Below, one piece after another: positions 4,957 to 63,274 of a stretch of 64,000 nucleotides of DNA. The position numbers and the translations under genes were made by a program. Under the pieces are notes generated by a model, which had not been told where the DNA came from, ran no database searches, and worked only from the letters and a program-made list of their open reading frames with translations. Origin of the DNA: Gammaproteobacteria bacterium (lineage in GTDB: Bacteria; Gemmatimonadota; Gemmatimonadetes; Longimicrobiales; Gaopeijiaceae); the NCBI GenBank assembly GCA_028819075.1, contig JAPPMM010000024.1, forward strand, positions 1 through 64,000, read 5' to 3'. How positions within the stretch are numbered: the first letter of the stretch is position 1; every line of letters starts with the position of its first letter.

Positions 4957-5377
4957 CCGGCGGAGCCGTCGAAACGCCCCTCTCGGCACCGCCCGGAACC
5001 ACGCCTATCGAGCAGTCGCGGACAAGCTCCCCGGTCTCGTCGTCGGCAGCCTCAAGGACGATGAGGGCGACCAGCCCGGCCCATCACTCCCTCGGGACTG
5101 CGCCACGCTCTGGCGAGCGCCCGGTTTCCGGCCTACCCGTACACCTCGGAGACCCGAGATCGTCGATCTGAGGCCATCCTGTGGCCCGCAGATACCCCGA
5201 AACGCCTCCAAAACGGTTCGAATCTCCGGGACACGGAGCAATCGCTCGCGCGCCGTGCACGAACCGCCTGCCCTTCGGCAATCCGTTCTCCGCACTTCGC
5301 ACACTTGGCATCACGGCTCCTAGCTGCTAGTAGTCTAGAGCCTCGCCAATCCCGCCCAACCGGCTAGGCTGGCGACA
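4957..5377. other. gene-free accessory DNA
   Basis: I see no supported gene. The stretch includes repeat family 2 copy 2 (separate entry). The remaining open frames are Arg/Pro/Gly-rich without domain signal, and none has a convincing ribosome site. Confidence 0.4.
5129..5225. repeat. interspersed repeat family 2, copy 2
   Basis: Second copy of the sequence at 2775-2868, in the same orientation. Both start with a C-rich block, then ACCCGAGATCGTC, and end with GCCTCC-AAA-CG followed by a CTCCG tail. Here it is not adjacent to a recombinase fragment. It lies between a family 1 repeat and the holin-like gene. Confidence 0.5.
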
Positions 5378-5608
5378 TCACGAGTTGCGCCCAAGGGCGC
5401 CGAGAAGCTCATCGGCCTTGCCGGATTCCACCTTGGCCCGCTCCTTCCCGTGGTCGGCGATTCCTTGGCCGACGATGTACGCTACCAGAGGCAGCAGCGC
5501 CTCTTCCGAGATTGGGACACCGAGATTCTCGAAGACGACCACCGCCACTCCAGTGAGGGCGGTCAGGAACTTCTTCGAACCAAACATCGTCACGATTGCG
5601 TTTCGCAC
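5378..5608 (-). CDS. holin-like / phage membrane protein
   Basis: 76 residues. FGSKKFLTALTGVAVVVFENL starts the first membrane segment, and SEEALLPLVAYIVGQGIAD forms a second, ending in a charged tail (HGKERAKVESGKADE). This arrangement matches small phage proteins annotated as holins or inner-membrane accessory proteins, so a role in phage lysis is inferred. The GTG at 5608 is preceded by a near-perfect AGGAGGAGG. An inverted repeat lies just upstream. It is the only minus-strand intact gene in the accessory region and may be a prophage remnant. Confidence 0.65.
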   Translation of the reverse strand: MRNAIVTMFGSKKFLTALTGVAVVVFENLGVPISEEALLPLVAYIVGQGIADHGKERAKVESGKADELLGALGRNS

Positions 5609-7706: not shown

Positions 7707-10238
7707 CTACGTCGAAAGTCCCGACCGGGGCAAGGAGGTGCGCCGCTGACCCTGCCCGGCTCGGCCGGCAACCCGCCCGGCGGCCGCCACCAGGTCGGTC
7801 ATGAGCCCGGCCGCGGTGACCTCCGGGCCCGCTCCGGGGCCCTGAATCACCATGGGATGGTCGGCGTACCATCGAGAGCGGATGACGAGCAGGTTTTCGG
7901 TTCCGCGGGTGCGAGCGGCGGGTTGGTCCTCGGGCACCACCTCCAGGCGGACGGACGCCACGCCCTGGGCCACCCGTGCCAGGCAGACGAGCCGCCCCCC
8001 CTGCGCCGTCGCCGCCCGCGACCGCTCGGCCATCTCGGCGTCGAGCCCGGAGAGCCGTTCGATGAACTCCCGGACCGGACCGGGCTGGAGGAGGCGCTCC
8101 GGGAGAATCGGTTCGACATCGACATCGGAAGGTTCCAGGGGGATCCCCGCCGTGCGTGCAAGGATGACGAGCTTTCGGACCACGTCCCTGAGGCCCAGGT
8201 CTTCCCTCGGATCCGGCTCGGAGATCCCTCTCCGCCGGGCTTCCTCGACCGCTGAACTGAACCGCCGCCCGCGGCTCAACTGGTCCATCAGGAAGGTGAG
8301 CGTACCCGACAGCGTCCCCTCGAGGGAGATGACGGTGTCACCGCTGCGCCGAAGGTCGGCGATCATTCGCACCATCGGGAGGCCGGCCCCCACAGTCGTC
8401 CCGTGGTGGAGGCCGCCCCCGCGCCCGGCAAGGCGCATGAGCGTCGCGTACTCCTCGAACGGCCCGGAAAGGGGAAGCTTGTTGGCCGTGACCACGGCGG
8501 CCCCGGCCCGGAGATAGTCCGCGTAGCACGCCGCGACGGTCGCGCTCGCGGTGCAGTCGACGACGACGAGCGGGTCGCCCGTCCAGACGGCCTCGAAGGC
8601 CCGGTCGGGATCGCCGCGGCCCCTCTCGACGTGCGACCTCCACCGGCCTGCCACCAGGCCCTCGAGGTCGGTTGCGGCCTTCCGGCTGTTCGAGATCCCG
8701 ACCAGGACGGGCTGGACCCCGTGCGGCCGCATCGCGTCGTCCCCGCTTGCGGCGAACTGGTCGAGGAAGGCTCCGCCGACCCCGCCCGCCCCGAGCACGA
8801 GGATGCGGACGGGCTCGAGTTCGTCAGGCGGGCTGAAGAAGGCGCGGTGGACGGTGCGGAGCGCGACCCCCTCCTGCCCGGCGTTCACGACCCATGAGAT
8901 GTTGCGTTCGGAGGATCCCTGGGCGATAGCGTGCACGTTTACCCTCGCAGCTCCCAGAGCCGAGAAGAGTTTCCCGGAGACGCCGGGCGTGTACCGCATC
9001 CCCTCTCCCACGACCGCGAGGATCGAAAACCCCTGTTCGACGGTCGGGTCGCGCACGAGCCGCGACTCCCGCTCCCTCCGGAACTCGGTCGCCAGAGCGG
9101 CCCGCGCCCGCTCCGCGTCGGCGCTCCTGACCGCCAGGGACAAGGCGTGCGCGCCCGAGTCCTGCGTGAAGAGAAGCGAGTCCACGTCGGCGACACGGAG
9201 CGCACGGAAGATCCGTTGCGAGGCCTCGGTAGCGCCGACCGTCTCGACGCCGGCGAGCCGGATCAACGCCACGTCCCTGGTCGCGGAGATCCCGCGCACC
9301 GGCCGAAGGGGATCCCGCTGAACCGAAGTCACGACCAGCGTCCCCGGGAGGGACGGATCGAGGGTGCTGCGGATCCTCAGCCGGATCCCGGCGCTCCGGG
9401 CAGGCTCCACTGCCGGGGGACAGATCACCTGCGCGCCGAAGTGGGCGAGCTCCAGGAGCTCCGCGTAGGTGATCTCGCGCACCGGCGCGGCGTCGGGCAC
9501 GGCCTCGGGATCCGCGGTGAGAACCCCGTCCACGTCCGTCCAGATCTCGACCTCCGCCGCGCCCAGCATCGAACCGAGAAGGGTGGCCGTGTAGTCGGAC
9601 GCGCCCCGGCCCAGCGTGGTCGTCTCCCCGGCGGCCGTCGAGGCGATGAACCCGGTGACCACCGGGACTCCGGCGTCTCCGGGAAGCCGCGCGCGCACCA
9701 ACTCCCGCGACCGCTGCCGGTCCACCCGCGCCGCGCCGAAGCGGGTGTCGGTGCGGAGCAGCTCCCTTGCGTCCACGTCGACCGCGGCGACCCCATGGGA
9801 GCGCATGCAGGCGGCGACGAGCATCGAGGAGAGCAACTCCCCGAAGGAGAGCATCCAGTCGCGCGTGCGGAGGGTGCACTCGCCGAGAAGCTGGGCCCCG
9901 CTCGCGAGGCGCCGGAGGACGTCCATCGCCGCATCGAGGCGCAGGGCGAGGCCCGGCGCTTCGTCGGTCGGAGCGAGGGCGTGGAGAAGCTCCCGGTGCA
10001 TCTCCGCGATCTCGCGCGTCACCGACGCGTGTCCGGCGTCCCCCCGCCCCGCAAGCTCGGCGACCTCGACCAGCCGGTCCGTCGTTCCGTCTACCGCGGA
10101 GACGACCACGACCGGGGTGGAGGTGGCGCGGGCATCGGCGACGAGACCGACGACGCGCCGGATACGCGCGGCGCTGCCGACCGAGGTCCCCCCGAACTTC
10201 ATCACCCGAATCGGAGACGGGTGGTCCGGCTTGATCAT
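7707..10238 (-). CDS. thrA: bifunctional aspartokinase / homoserine dehydrogenase
   Basis: 843 residues, close to E. coli ThrA (820). Residues 1-300 are the aspartate kinase (VMKFGGTSVGS near the start; TLGRGASDYTATLLGSMLGA). About 310-465 are two ACT domains for threonine feedback. From about 480 comes homoserine dehydrogenase, with an NAD(P) site LVLGAGGVGGAFLDQF and catalytic-region EDLGLRDVVRKLVILAR. It catalyses the first and third steps of the Thr/Met branch. The intervening step can be supplied by asd at 35-36 kb. The ATG at 10238 is four codons before the DHPSPIRVMKFGG block. Confidence 0.95.
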   Translation of the reverse strand: MIKPDHPSPIRVMKFGGTSVGSAARIRRVVGLVADARATSTPVVVVSAVDGTTDRLVEVAELAGRGDAGHASVTREIAEMHRELLHALAPTDEAPGLALRLDAAMDVLRRLASGAQLLGECTLRTRDWMLSFGELLSSMLVAACMRSHGVAAVDVDARELLRTDTRFGAARVDRQRSRELVRARLPGDAGVPVVTGFIASTAAGETTTLGRGASDYTATLLGSMLGAAEVEIWTDVDGVLTADPEAVPDAAPVREITYAELLELAHFGAQVICPPAVEPARSAGIRLRIRSTLDPSLPGTLVVTSVQRDPLRPVRGISATRDVALIRLAGVETVGATEASQRIFRALRVADVDSLLFTQDSGAHALSLAVRSADAERARAALATEFRRERESRLVRDPTVEQGFSILAVVGEGMRYTPGVSGKLFSALGAARVNVHAIAQGSSERNISWVVNAGQEGVALRTVHRAFFSPPDELEPVRILVLGAGGVGGAFLDQFAASGDDAMRPHGVQPVLVGISNSRKAATDLEGLVAGRWRSHVERGRGDPDRAFEAVWTGDPLVVVDCTASATVAACYADYLRAGAAVVTANKLPLSGPFEEYATLMRLAGRGGGLHHGTTVGAGLPMVRMIADLRRSGDTVISLEGTLSGTLTFLMDQLSRGRRFSSAVEEARRRGISEPDPREDLGLRDVVRKLVILARTAGIPLEPSDVDVEPILPERLLQPGPVREFIERLSGLDAEMAERSRAATAQGGRLVCLARVAQGVASVRLEVVPEDQPAARTRGTENLLVIRSRWYADHPMVIQGPGAGPEVTAAGLMTDLVAAAGRVAGRAGQGQRRTSLPRSGLST

Positions 10239-54803: not shown

Positions 54804-55472
54804 CTACCCGCTGAAGGTCGCGATCTCGCGCAGGGACTTCTTGCCGATGACGGGCACCCTGGCGTCGTCCGCCGGATACCCCACCACCAGCAACAGGAAG
54901 GGGCGCTCGTTTTTCGGACGGCCCAGGATGCGGTTCAGGAAGCCCATGGGGCTGGGCGTGTGGGTGAGCGATGCCAGGCCGGCGTGATGGAGGGCCGTGA
55001 TGAGCAGCCCCGTGGCGATGCCGACCGACTCGGTCACGTAGTAGTTCTTGCGGCGGGTCCCGTCGGGGAGCAGAGCGTAGCTCTCGGCGAAGATCACGAT
55101 CAGGTACGGCGCGACCTCCAGGAAGGGCTTGTGTTCGTCGGTGCCCAGGGGTTCGAGCGCCCGCAGCCATTCGTCCGGCGCCCGTCCCCGGTAGAAGGCC
55201 CGCTCCTCGTCTTCCGCGGCCTCGCGGATCTGCTTCTTCACCGTGGGGTCGCTCACCACGACGAAGTGCCAGGGCTGGTGGTTGGCGCCGTTGGGGGCGG
55301 AACCGGCGGCGAGCAGGCAGTCCTCGATGATCCCGCGCGGCACGGAGCGCGGTGAGAAGTCGCGCACCGTGCGCCGGCGGCGGACTTCCTCGCGGAACGC
55401 GCGCGCACGGGCGCGCATCTCCCGGACGGGATACTCCCGATAGTCTTCCAGCGGCATCAGCCGGACGCTCAT
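54804..55472 (-). CDS. nitroreductase-family flavoprotein
   Basis: 222 residues. [22 protein letters not shown] starts the FMN site. [20 protein letters not shown] and [20 protein letters not shown] follow, and [17 protein letters not shown] closes. It resembles dehalogenase-like or BluB-like members with an N-terminal [14 protein letters not shown] extension. It reduces nitro or quinone-like compounds with NAD(P)H. Overlaps the M28 stop by four bases (ATGA). Confidence 0.88.
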
Positions 55473-56545
55473 CGCCTGTTCTCGATCATCTCGACGATCA
55501 TGCGGCGGCTTTCGGGATTCCACTCCGGCGGCTCCGGAGCGCTGGCGATCTCGAGCCCCAGGTAGAAGATGAGCCGGGTCAGGCGCGCTCCCTTTTCGGC
55601 GTCGATCAGCTCGACCTCGTCGCTCGGCCGGTGGTAGTCGTCGTGGGTCCCGTTGAAGAAGAAGAGGACCGGCACGCCGTTGCGCGCGAAGTTGTAGTGG
55701 TCCGAACGGAAGTAGAAGTTCTCGTCCGGCCACAGGTCGTCGATGGCGGTCATGCCGAGCTCGGGATGCGCCGCGTTGACGCGTTGCAGGGTCGCCCCCA
55801 GATCCGAGTGCTCCTTGCCGATGGCCACGATGGTGTCGGGCCAGTTGCGGCCCACCATGTCCATGTTGAGGTTGGCCACCATGCGCCCCGAGGCGACCGG
55901 TTCCGGCGGGTCGTCGGCGTAGGCGCGGCTTCCGTGCAGGCCCCGCTCCTCCCCGCTCACCAGCAGGAACACCGTCGACCGCGCCGGCGGCTCTTCGAGG
56001 GCGGCAAACGCCTCGGCGATCTCGATGACCGCGGCCGTTCCGGAGGCGTCGTCGTCGGCGCCGTTGTAGATGCTGTCCCCGCTCGCGTCCGGATCCCGCA
56101 CTCCCACGTGGTCCATGTGGGCGCTGAACACGACGTACTCGTTCCGCAGTTCCGGATCGCTGCCCGTCAGCACGGCGGCCACGTTGGGCGCGTCGATCGC
56201 AGGGGCTTCGAGATCAACTATCCGGGGACGGAAAGAGTAGCGCTGGATGAACTCGCCCCCGCCACCACCCGGTTCGAGTCCCATTGCAGCGAGCTCTCCC
56301 GCAATCCAGCGCGCGGCCTCCTCGATCTCCGGGCTCGGCGTGGCCCGGCCCCGCATGGAGTCGTGGGCCAGAATCGCCACCCGGTCCAGAAAGTCGGCTT
56401 CGGTGATGGTCGCGGCGGCCGCCCGAGCGTCCCTGGACGAGCCGGACAAGGAGTCTCCCGCTTCGTCGTCGCCCGCGCACGCGCCGACCGCGAAACAGGC
56501 CAGCATCCCTCCGATCACGCGCCAATCGCTTCCCTTCAATCTCAC
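55469..56545 (-). CDS. M28-family aminopeptidase lipoprotein
   Basis: 358 residues. A lipobox in [10 protein letters not shown]. Zinc ligands: [56 protein letters not shown] and [18 protein letters not shown]. It removes N-terminal amino acids from peptides near the cell envelope, as with Aap-type enzymes. Translationally coupled to the nitroreductase gene. Confidence 0.92.
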
Positions 56546-56715: not shown

Positions 56716-56757
56716 AATACCAAAGCCCCCGAACCCGCTTCCACGGGCTCGGGGGCC
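56716..56757 (-). terminator. stem-loop with T-rich tail after the 55-codon gene
   Basis: GCCCCCGAACCC (56725-56736) pairs with GGGCTCGGGGGC (56745-56756) with one mismatch. On the minus strand the stem is followed by TTTGGTATT. It lies about 37 bases beyond the small gene's stop and fits an intrinsic terminator for that transcript. Confidence 0.6.
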
Positions 56758-56793
56758 TCACCACCCCACCCCACATCTCGACTCAGCCGATAC

Positions 56794-56961
56794 TCATTCC
56801 CTCGAACCGGCCAGGGAAATGTTCGGAACGTCCTTCAAGGAAGAGATGGGTCGAGCGTCACGCGCCAGAAGCCGCAGATTGCGAGCTTCCCGGTACCTCC
56901 CTTCATCCTCCGCCCTCGATGCCGCTCTTCCCAGGTGCCTGATTCGTTCTTCCGTGCTCAT
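56794..56961 (-). CDS. 55-residue helical protein behind a sigma-54 promoter
   Basis: Reads STEERIRHLGRAASRAEDEG at the N-terminus, then RYREARNLRLLARDARPISS and ends near NISLAGSRE. It is strongly charged and probably helical. GGGGGAG lies four bases before the ATG, a sigma-54 promoter 76-93 bases upstream and a terminator-like stem-loop downstream, so it looks like a complete transcription unit. It has no recognisable family and could also act partly as a small RNA. Confidence 0.6.
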   Translation of the reverse strand: MSTEERIRHLGRAASRAEDEGRYREARNLRLLARDARPISSLKDVPNISLAGSRE

Positions 56962-57012
56962 CCCACTCCCCCTGTCTTCCGGGCCTACGCGACCGGCGCA
57001 TGCCCGGTTTCA

Positions 57013-57028
57013 GCCAGGTCCGCCTGGC
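57013..57028 (-). promoter_or_regulatory. hairpin at the predicted 5' end of the small-gene transcript
   Basis: GCCAGG (57013-57018) pairs with CCTGGC (57023-57028) around a four-base loop. The predicted sigma-54 start site falls at about 57028, so the transcript would begin with this hairpin. Confidence 0.35.
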
Positions 57029-57036
57029 AGGACATA

Positions 57037-57054
57037 GAGCAAGAGTCGTGCCAA
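57037..57054 (-). promoter_or_regulatory. sigma-54 (RpoN) promoter, -24/-12
   Basis: On the minus strand TTGGCACG, four bases (ACTC) and TTGCTC match the consensus YTGGCACG-N4-TTGCW at all positions, including the -24 GG (57051-57052) and -12 GC (57039-57040). The transcript would start near 57028 and run into the 55-codon gene. Confidence 0.75.
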
Positions 57055-57176
57055 ACTTGGCAACGGACCGCCCCGAGGTGGCCCGCCGGTTTGCCATGCC
57101 GATCCGGCCCCCGTAGGCTCAGGGCTCGCACCCCCGCCCGCGTGGCCCCGGAGGCCCTCGCCCGGAGAACCAGACC

Positions 57177-58316
57177 GTGACCACGTCCGCCCAGCACTCG
57201 TTCTTCCGCCGCTACCTGCTCCCGGGATTCGTCTTTCAGTCGGTGGTCATCGCAGGCGGGTACGGCACCGGACGCGAACTCGTGGAGTTCTTCCTCACGC
57301 AGGGTCCCCGCGGCGGCCTCATGGCCATGCTGCTGGTGTCCACGGTGATCTGGAGCGCGACCTGCGCGGTGACCTTCGACTTCGCCCGCCGCTTCTCCGC
57401 CTACGACTACCGAACCTTCTTCCGCCGCCTCCTGGGTGGGCGCTGGTGGGTCGCCTACGAAGCGGCATACCTGGCGTTCCTCATGCTGGTTCTGGCGGTC
57501 ATCGCGGCCGCGGCCGGCAGCATACTCGAAGAGACGTTCGGCATCAGCTACGCTGCCGGGGTGCTCGGCATGATCGCCGCCATCGGCTACCTGGTGTTCC
57601 GCGGGTCGAAGACCATAGAGCGCTTCTTCGCCGGCTGGTCCTTCGTGCTCTACGCCGTGTTCGTCCTCTTTTTCGTCCTCTGTTTCGTCTCCTTCGGGGG
57701 AGAAATCTCGCAGAGGTTCGCCGCCGTCCCGGCGGGCGAGGGCTGGCTCCTTGCCGGCGTGCGCTACGCCGCCTACAACCTCGCGACCATTCCCGGCCTG
57801 CTCTTCGTGATGCGGCACGTCGGCACCCGCCGGGAGGCGGTCTCGGCGGGCCTGCTGGCCGGCCCGATCGCCATCATCCCCGGGTTGCTCTTCTACCTCG
57901 CCATGGTGGGACAGTACCCGGAGATCCTTGACCGCACCGTCCCCGCGAACGCGCTGCTCGAAACGCTCGGCATGCGCTGGTTCCAACTCGCGTTCCAGCT
58001 GGCGCTCTTCGGAACCCTGATCGAGACCGGGGCGGGGATGATCCACGCGGTGAACGAGCGCATAGCGGCGGTCTACGCACGGCGCAAGGCGGAGATGCCC
58101 GCCCGCCTGCGCACCGGGATCGGCACAGGCCTGCTGCTCGGTGGCGCCCTCATCGCCCAATTCGGGCTGATCGACCTGATCGCGCGGGGATACGGGACCA
58201 TGACCTGGGTCTTCCTGGCCGTGTACGTCGTACCGGTGCTCACCGTGGGCGTGTGGAAGCTGGCCCGCCGAGGCCCCGATCGGCCTTCTCGTCCCGGCGA
58301 GGCAACACTTTCGTAA
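57177..58316 (+). CDS. YkvI-like membrane transporter
   Basis: 379 residues and about 10 membrane helices. LLPGFVFQSVVIAGGYGTGRELVEFF matches the N-terminus of YkvI-type APC-superfamily proteins. FLMLVLAVIAAAAGSILEETFG, FGTLIETGAGMIHAVNERI and later helices agree. The substrate is unknown. GTG start at 57177. It lies divergent from the sigma-54 unit, so a regulator bound between the two could serve both. Confidence 0.78.
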   Translation: MTTSAQHSFFRRYLLPGFVFQSVVIAGGYGTGRELVEFFLTQGPRGGLMAMLLVSTVIWSATCAVTFDFARRFSAYDYRTFFRRLLGGRWWVAYEAAYLAFLMLVLAVIAAAAGSILEETFGISYAAGVLGMIAAIGYLVFRGSKTIERFFAGWSFVLYAVFVLFFVLCFVSFGGEISQRFAAVPAGEGWLLAGVRYAAYNLATIPGLLFVMRHVGTRREAVSAGLLAGPIAIIPGLLFYLAMVGQYPEILDRTVPANALLETLGMRWFQLAFQLALFGTLIETGAGMIHAVNERIAAVYARRKAEMPARLRTGIGTGLLLGGALIAQFGLIDLIARGYGTMTWVFLAVYVVPVLTVGVWKLARRGPDRPSRPGEATLS

Positions 58317-62872: not shown

Positions 62873-62905
62873 GTGTCGCGGCCAATGCCGGCTGCTCCCC
62901 CGCGG

Positions 62906-63274
62906 CGGAGCGCACGGAATAAGCCGAGTTCTGTCCCCGCCCGAAGACGGGGGAGGATCATTTATCTGGGACCGGCATCGCTGCCGGCCTCGTGCGGCCT
63001 ACCCGGGACTCGGGTGGAGCGGGCAACTCCTCGTCCTCTATTCGGCCTTGCTCCGGGTGGGGTTTGCCATGCGGCCCCTGTTGCCAGCGGCCCGGTGCGC
63101 CCTTACCGCACCCTTTCACCCTTGCCTGTGCCCCGGGGGGCCATCGGCGGTCTGCTCTCTGCGGCACTTTCCGTCGGCTCACGCCGCCCGGGCGTTACCC
63201 GGCACCCTGCCCTGTGGAGCTCGGACTTTCCTCCAGCGGGCTAACCCGCCAGCGATCCTCACTCGTGCGCTCCG
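62906..63274 (-). ncRNA. rnpB: RNase P RNA (class A)
   Basis: Read on the minus strand, the 5' CGGAGCGCACGA pairs with the 3' TCCGTGCGCTCCG as helix P1. GAGGAAAGTCCGAGCTCCACAGGGCAG (in 20-base pieces: GAGGAAAGTCCG and CAGGGCAGG) and the terminal ACAGAACTCGGCTTATTCC are universal RNase P RNA blocks. GCAAGGGTGAAAGGGTGCGG matches the P10-P11 region. It processes tRNA 5' ends. It sits 33 bases from the tRNA-Arg gene, upstream on the same strand. Confidence 0.95.

Follow-up and report, generated by a model that had tools for sequence, protein, structure and literature searches.

The window, which is the whole 64,000-nucleotide stretch of DNA analysed here, contains a 55-codon gene, P0001, on the minus strand. 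It lies between an M28 peptidase gene (55469-56545, minus strand) and a divergent gene (57177-58316, plus strand) that has no Pfam or NCBIfam match and encodes what we take to be a YkvI-like membrane protein. P0001 begins with an ATG at 56961, and its stop codon, included in the feature, ends at 56794. A ribosome-binding site, GGGGGAG, precedes it at 56972-56966 (minus strand), and GGGGGA is invariant in the genus. The initial annotation had proposed this ribosome site and this frame, and both were found. Its remark that the unit is below usual gene-calling lengths is doubtful, as the minimum length of common gene finders is less than 55 codons.

A sigma-54 (-24/-12) promoter element, TTGGCACGACTCTTGCT, is located upstream at 57054-57038 on the minus strand. 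It fits the pattern TGGCACG-N4-TTGCW with zero mismatches, as the initial annotation had claimed, and carries GG (-25/-24) and GC (-13/-12) at 10-nt spacing. The GC of the -12 box occupies 57040-57039, which places the predicted transcription start (+1) at 57027 (minus strand), 12 nt past the -12 C according to sigma-54 geometry. The pattern generated 1 perfect match in the window and 1 in the 4.40-Mb genome, both of them TTGGCACGACTCTTGCT. Using a hand-set, approximate sigma-54 weight matrix on the window only, TTGGCACGACTCTTGCT scored 20.8 out of 21.3 and the next-best site scored 12.3. Given the base composition, ~0.014 perfect matches are expected by chance per 64 kb and ~0.94 per genome. 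When sites with one mismatch or fewer were counted, a reversed-pattern control produced 54 matches vs 20 for the real pattern. Uniqueness alone is therefore weak proof, and the case is carried by conservation.

The genus provides 9 distinct loci, and the element leaves a footprint in each, so the conserved promoter that the initial annotation proposed to look for in relatives is present. It lies 77-81 nt 5' of the ATG in 9/9 loci, and 14/17 of its columns are invariant, compared with 7/20 upstream and 2/16 downstream (Fisher p=1e-4). Variation is confined to the first base, a C/T position and the last base, and the consensus is loose at the last two. At the last base, L025 (TTGCC) is the one locus that does not have W. 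Among 21 distant homologues, 0/21 had a sigma-54 site with <3 mismatches in the 300 bp before the gene. Sigma-54 control as a family-wide property was rejected on this result. Since none of these homologues has the site, the small gene appears to predate the promoter, whose most likely origin is a gain within this genus. That the site was lost elsewhere is possible and would need more events.

Comparison of the 9 loci indicates that the 55-codon frame is a gene. The 55-residue protein is 93-100% identical among them, and only residue 3 and the C-terminal tail vary. Changes in the frame across the genus comprise 15 synonymous and 6 nonsynonymous. Within codons 4-42 the synonymous excess is 14 vs 0 (neutral probability 1e-8), which is the outcome expected of a coding frame in the synonymous/non-synonymous comparison suggested by the initial annotation, and the variable columns at codon positions 1, 2 and 3 number 1, 0 and 13. 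Many genera of the same taxonomic family have homologues of 40-60 residues, which are 37-61% identical in the search list. The view that the protein might have neither homologue nor conserved promoter in related strains thus fails. Across 298 genomes sampled from the whole phylum, clear profile matches (E<1e-6) were confined to that family, and only weak partial matches were obtained outside it. A profile scan of genome contigs gave no usable conserved stretch. Pfam, NCBIfam and PHROG gave no match for the small protein over curated cut-off or at E<0.001. One genome of the genus, G006, which is 98% complete and has six activators, is without the small gene and the whole locus, so the gene is dispensable. 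Locus L117 (G079:C163) has three members of the small-protein family scattered within ~6 kb.

Conservation extends over the predicted transcript. It starts to rise a few bases past +1, and the conserved stretch matches the extent of the predicted RNA. The conserved part of the 5' untranslated leader (57021-56962, minus strand) has 44/60 invariant columns and 0.935 identity, the frame has 144/165, and the stop codon plus conserved 3' untranslated region (3'UTR; 56793-56747, minus strand) have 43/50. An 18-bp stem-loop at 56757-56722 (minus strand) is the probable transcript end, beyond which conservation collapses to 24/150. The initial annotation had called it terminator-like. A strong, folded hairpin is indeed there and is largely kept in the genus through one-sided changes and G-U pairs, with a few pairs broken; it has no T-tract and was unreported by a terminator scan. 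A second hairpin, CCAGG-CGGA-CCTGG, was noted at the start site and does exist at 57027-57014 (minus strand), but it is destroyed in 5/9 loci (L025, L027, L028, L029 and L030) and was rejected as a functional element. At fourfold sites of the divergent gene, 90/171 are invariant. The leader and 3'UTR are more conserved than this (p=4e-6), and the fourfold sites inside the small gene slightly more so (20/27, p=0.03); these column-count p-values are rough, since sites are treated as independent and genomes as equally distant. Together the three comparisons argue for constraint on the RNA itself, which appears more conserved than the protein alone requires. Rfam had no match to the transcript at gathering score, and RNAalifold, on aligned sequences that are ~95% identical, detected neither base pairs with compensatory changes nor a covariation term in support of the fold. 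The UTRs are unrecognisable outside the genus, and a deep RNA element was rejected on these three grounds.

The unit was initially described as an orphan. It is monocistronic here, but across the family its surroundings are conserved, with a convergent TerC gene at their end, and homologues of the protein are numerous. The usual order in relatives is MarR and/or amidohydrolase, the small gene, often ArgJ plus a sulfocyanin-like cupredoxin, and then convergent TerC. In L112 and L167-L169 the order is amidohydrolase-small gene-TerC-M28, and in the genus it is YkvI-small gene-(TerC)-M28. These orders link the two arrangements and make the small genes positional orthologues. At L118 the small gene is already paired with a divergent YkvI-like gene. 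Several relatives have TerC between the small gene and M28; in this species it has been lost from that position. The close relatives are metagenome-assembled genomes, and the lineage appears to be marine and largely sponge-associated, with the isolate names of two relatives reading as fitting sponge samples. Within the window, a conserved TTGCCA-N17-TAGGCT at 57085-57120 (plus strand) is likely a sigma-70-type promoter of the divergent membrane-protein gene, and a class A RNase P RNA lies at 62903-63273 (minus strand) beside a tRNA-Arg(ccg) gene.

We consider it probable that the sigma-54 transcription unit and its 55-residue coding gene are both real, the gene, the selection on it, the promoter conservation and the synteny all coming from genome comparison. 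The unit proposed in the initial annotation is strongly supported in this respect. That the element is a chance sigma-54-like sequence, with the small gene expressed from another promoter, would agree with ~0.9 perfect matches expected per genome and with the 54 vs 20 of the reversed control. This is highly improbable, because in 9 loci the element is conserved amid variable DNA with almost the same spacing to the ATG, it varies at its first base and at two positions where the consensus is loose (C/T position, last base), it outscores the next-best window site 20.8 to 12.3, and no sigma-70-like site was found nearby. Conservation of the UTRs and synonymous sites could be read as that of a non-coding RNA with a fortuitous frame. 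The 1, 0, 13 distribution of variable columns over codons 4-42, and protein homologues at 37-61% identity whose UTRs are unrelated, make this reading scarcely credible. The same conservation might instead reflect a dual-function RNA, a single sigma-54 transcript that serves as the protein's mRNA and whose conserved leader and 3' region give it a second role as a regulatory RNA, exerted by base pairing or protein binding. The excess of leader (44/60) and 3'UTR (43/50) over the neighbour's fourfold sites (90/171), the 20/27 within the small gene and a fold z-score of -2.3 point in this direction. Compensatory pairs and covariation were not seen by RNAalifold, Rfam was negative, the UTRs are unrecognisable beyond the genus, and translation control could equally explain the leader, so we regard this second function as rather unlikely. 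A genus-specific form of it, in which an RpoN promoter took over a small-protein gene that was already old and widespread, and the gene's mRNA evolved a further function at the RNA level in its leader and 3' region, seems about as improbable.

A further alternative concerns the protein. AlphaFold, with 31 homologues, predicted helices at residues 3-19 and 23-36, a turn at the invariant Gly21, and a low-confidence tail; pLDDT was 90 or more for 32/55 residues, covering most of both helices. The protein is net basic. The closest solved hairpin found by Foldseek was half of the sulerythrin/rubrerythrin bundle (probability 0.99, rmsd 0.4 Å over 34 residues, E>1), and weak sequence-profile matches to rubrerythrins cover the same residues and share a similar AxxAExEG motif. 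The gene could on this basis be a degenerate rubrerythrin/ferritin-like fragment that still binds metal. However, Foldseek gave no match at E<=0.001, and the similarity is below significance. Rubrerythrins and sulerythrin are four-helix bundles with diiron ligands, whereas this protein has 55 residues, and the positions aligned with the ligands (by a sulerythrin numbering partly assumed from entry titles) are Thr3, Ala36 and Ile39 and are not Glu/His in the family. A diiron site is thus unlikely, the metal-binding remnant was rejected, and the fragment reading as a whole is very unlikely. TPR-like helical repeats such as NlpI also have an antiparallel helix pair, but here there is a single pair and the match is weak.

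Under the preferred reading, a sigma-54 unit with a coding gene, RNA polymerase-sigma-54 would wait at the -24/-12 element and start at ~57027 only once an enhancer-binding activator is on. The product would be a stand-alone RpoN-dependent mRNA of ~310 nt, translated from GGGGGAG-ATG and presumably ending at the strong stem-loop, and would encode a small cytoplasmic alpha-hairpin protein. So small a hairpin would usually need to oligomerise or to bind a partner in order to be stable. The protein would therefore most likely self-associate into a helical bundle or pack on a partner as an adaptor or regulator. In the family, the gene's neighbours include TerC (of a metal-transport family), cupredoxin and MarR genes, which makes a partner in envelope/metal or redox stress the likeliest. 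The link is one of guilt by association, and the locus of this species, having lost TerC, no longer shows it; we offer the adaptor/regulator role and the metal/redox setting only tentatively. The gene would be ancestral in the family and would have become an independent, sigma-54-controlled unit in this genus.

The nearest known parallel is glmY of enterobacteria, a sigma-54-dependent small-RNA gene (PMC6075780, PMC3162934). Both are short stand-alone transcripts driven by a strong sigma-54 promoter, and both genomes have several two-component activators. Unlike glmY, the transcript described here encodes a protein under clear purifying selection, and the two have no sequence relation. The dual-function reading has a model in the glnA mRNA, from a nitrogen/RpoN setting, whose 3'UTR is the source of a regulatory RNA (PMC9731577); for the small gene's transcript, such processing and targets would be hypothetical. 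The locus would add an undescribed, family-wide small protein missed by the major libraries. It would also be a rare well-supported RpoN target, none for the lineage having turned up in the literature searched. An old gene whose promoter is confined to one genus would illustrate cleanly how a small gene is rewired to an alternative sigma factor.

The genome has one copy of rpoN (PF04552, E=5.9e-61) and six sigma-54 AAA+ enhancer-binding activators at E<1e-60. At the locus, no upstream activator site for the small gene was identified. One candidate palindrome, GAACTC-CAC-GAGTTC, lies inside the divergent gene and shares nothing with the amtB upstream repeats, and palindromes of the amtB type (CTACA..TGTAG type) are absent upstream of the small gene. 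With activator groups assigned by score and frame length only, and the genus genomes being incomplete drafts, C38 is missing in G007, C19 in G002 and C51 in G008. These three look dispensable for the conserved promoter, and C65 (NtrX-like), C45 (NifA-like) and C18 (short AAA+) look like better candidates. The C18 activator (L103, G000:C18, 5885-6736) is short, with 283 residues and a GAFTGA motif, and is seemingly without a C-terminal DNA-binding domain. It appears to end soon after the AAA+ domain and, speculatively, might act without a bound upstream site.

Other sigma-54 sites were observed near activator genes. In L104 (G000:C51), near-consensus sites at 5220-5236 and 8234-8250 lie immediately 5' of two genes of one cluster, the first for an NtrC-type regulator and the second for a TolC-like outer-membrane protein; the arrangement suggests a self-regulated sigma-54 two-component/export system. 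In L100 (G000:C45), a weak site at 5524-5540 is 94 bp before amtB-glnK and adjoins the NifA-like activator gene; two palindromes, CTACAATTCTGTAG and TCCTACCAAAATGTAGGA, are found upstream of amtB-glnK. Finally, the 11 genus genomes have only one other perfect match to the looser sigma-54 pattern, TTGGCATGGGCCTTGCT in L157 (G003:C282, 4981-4997), between an activator gene and a downstream gene.
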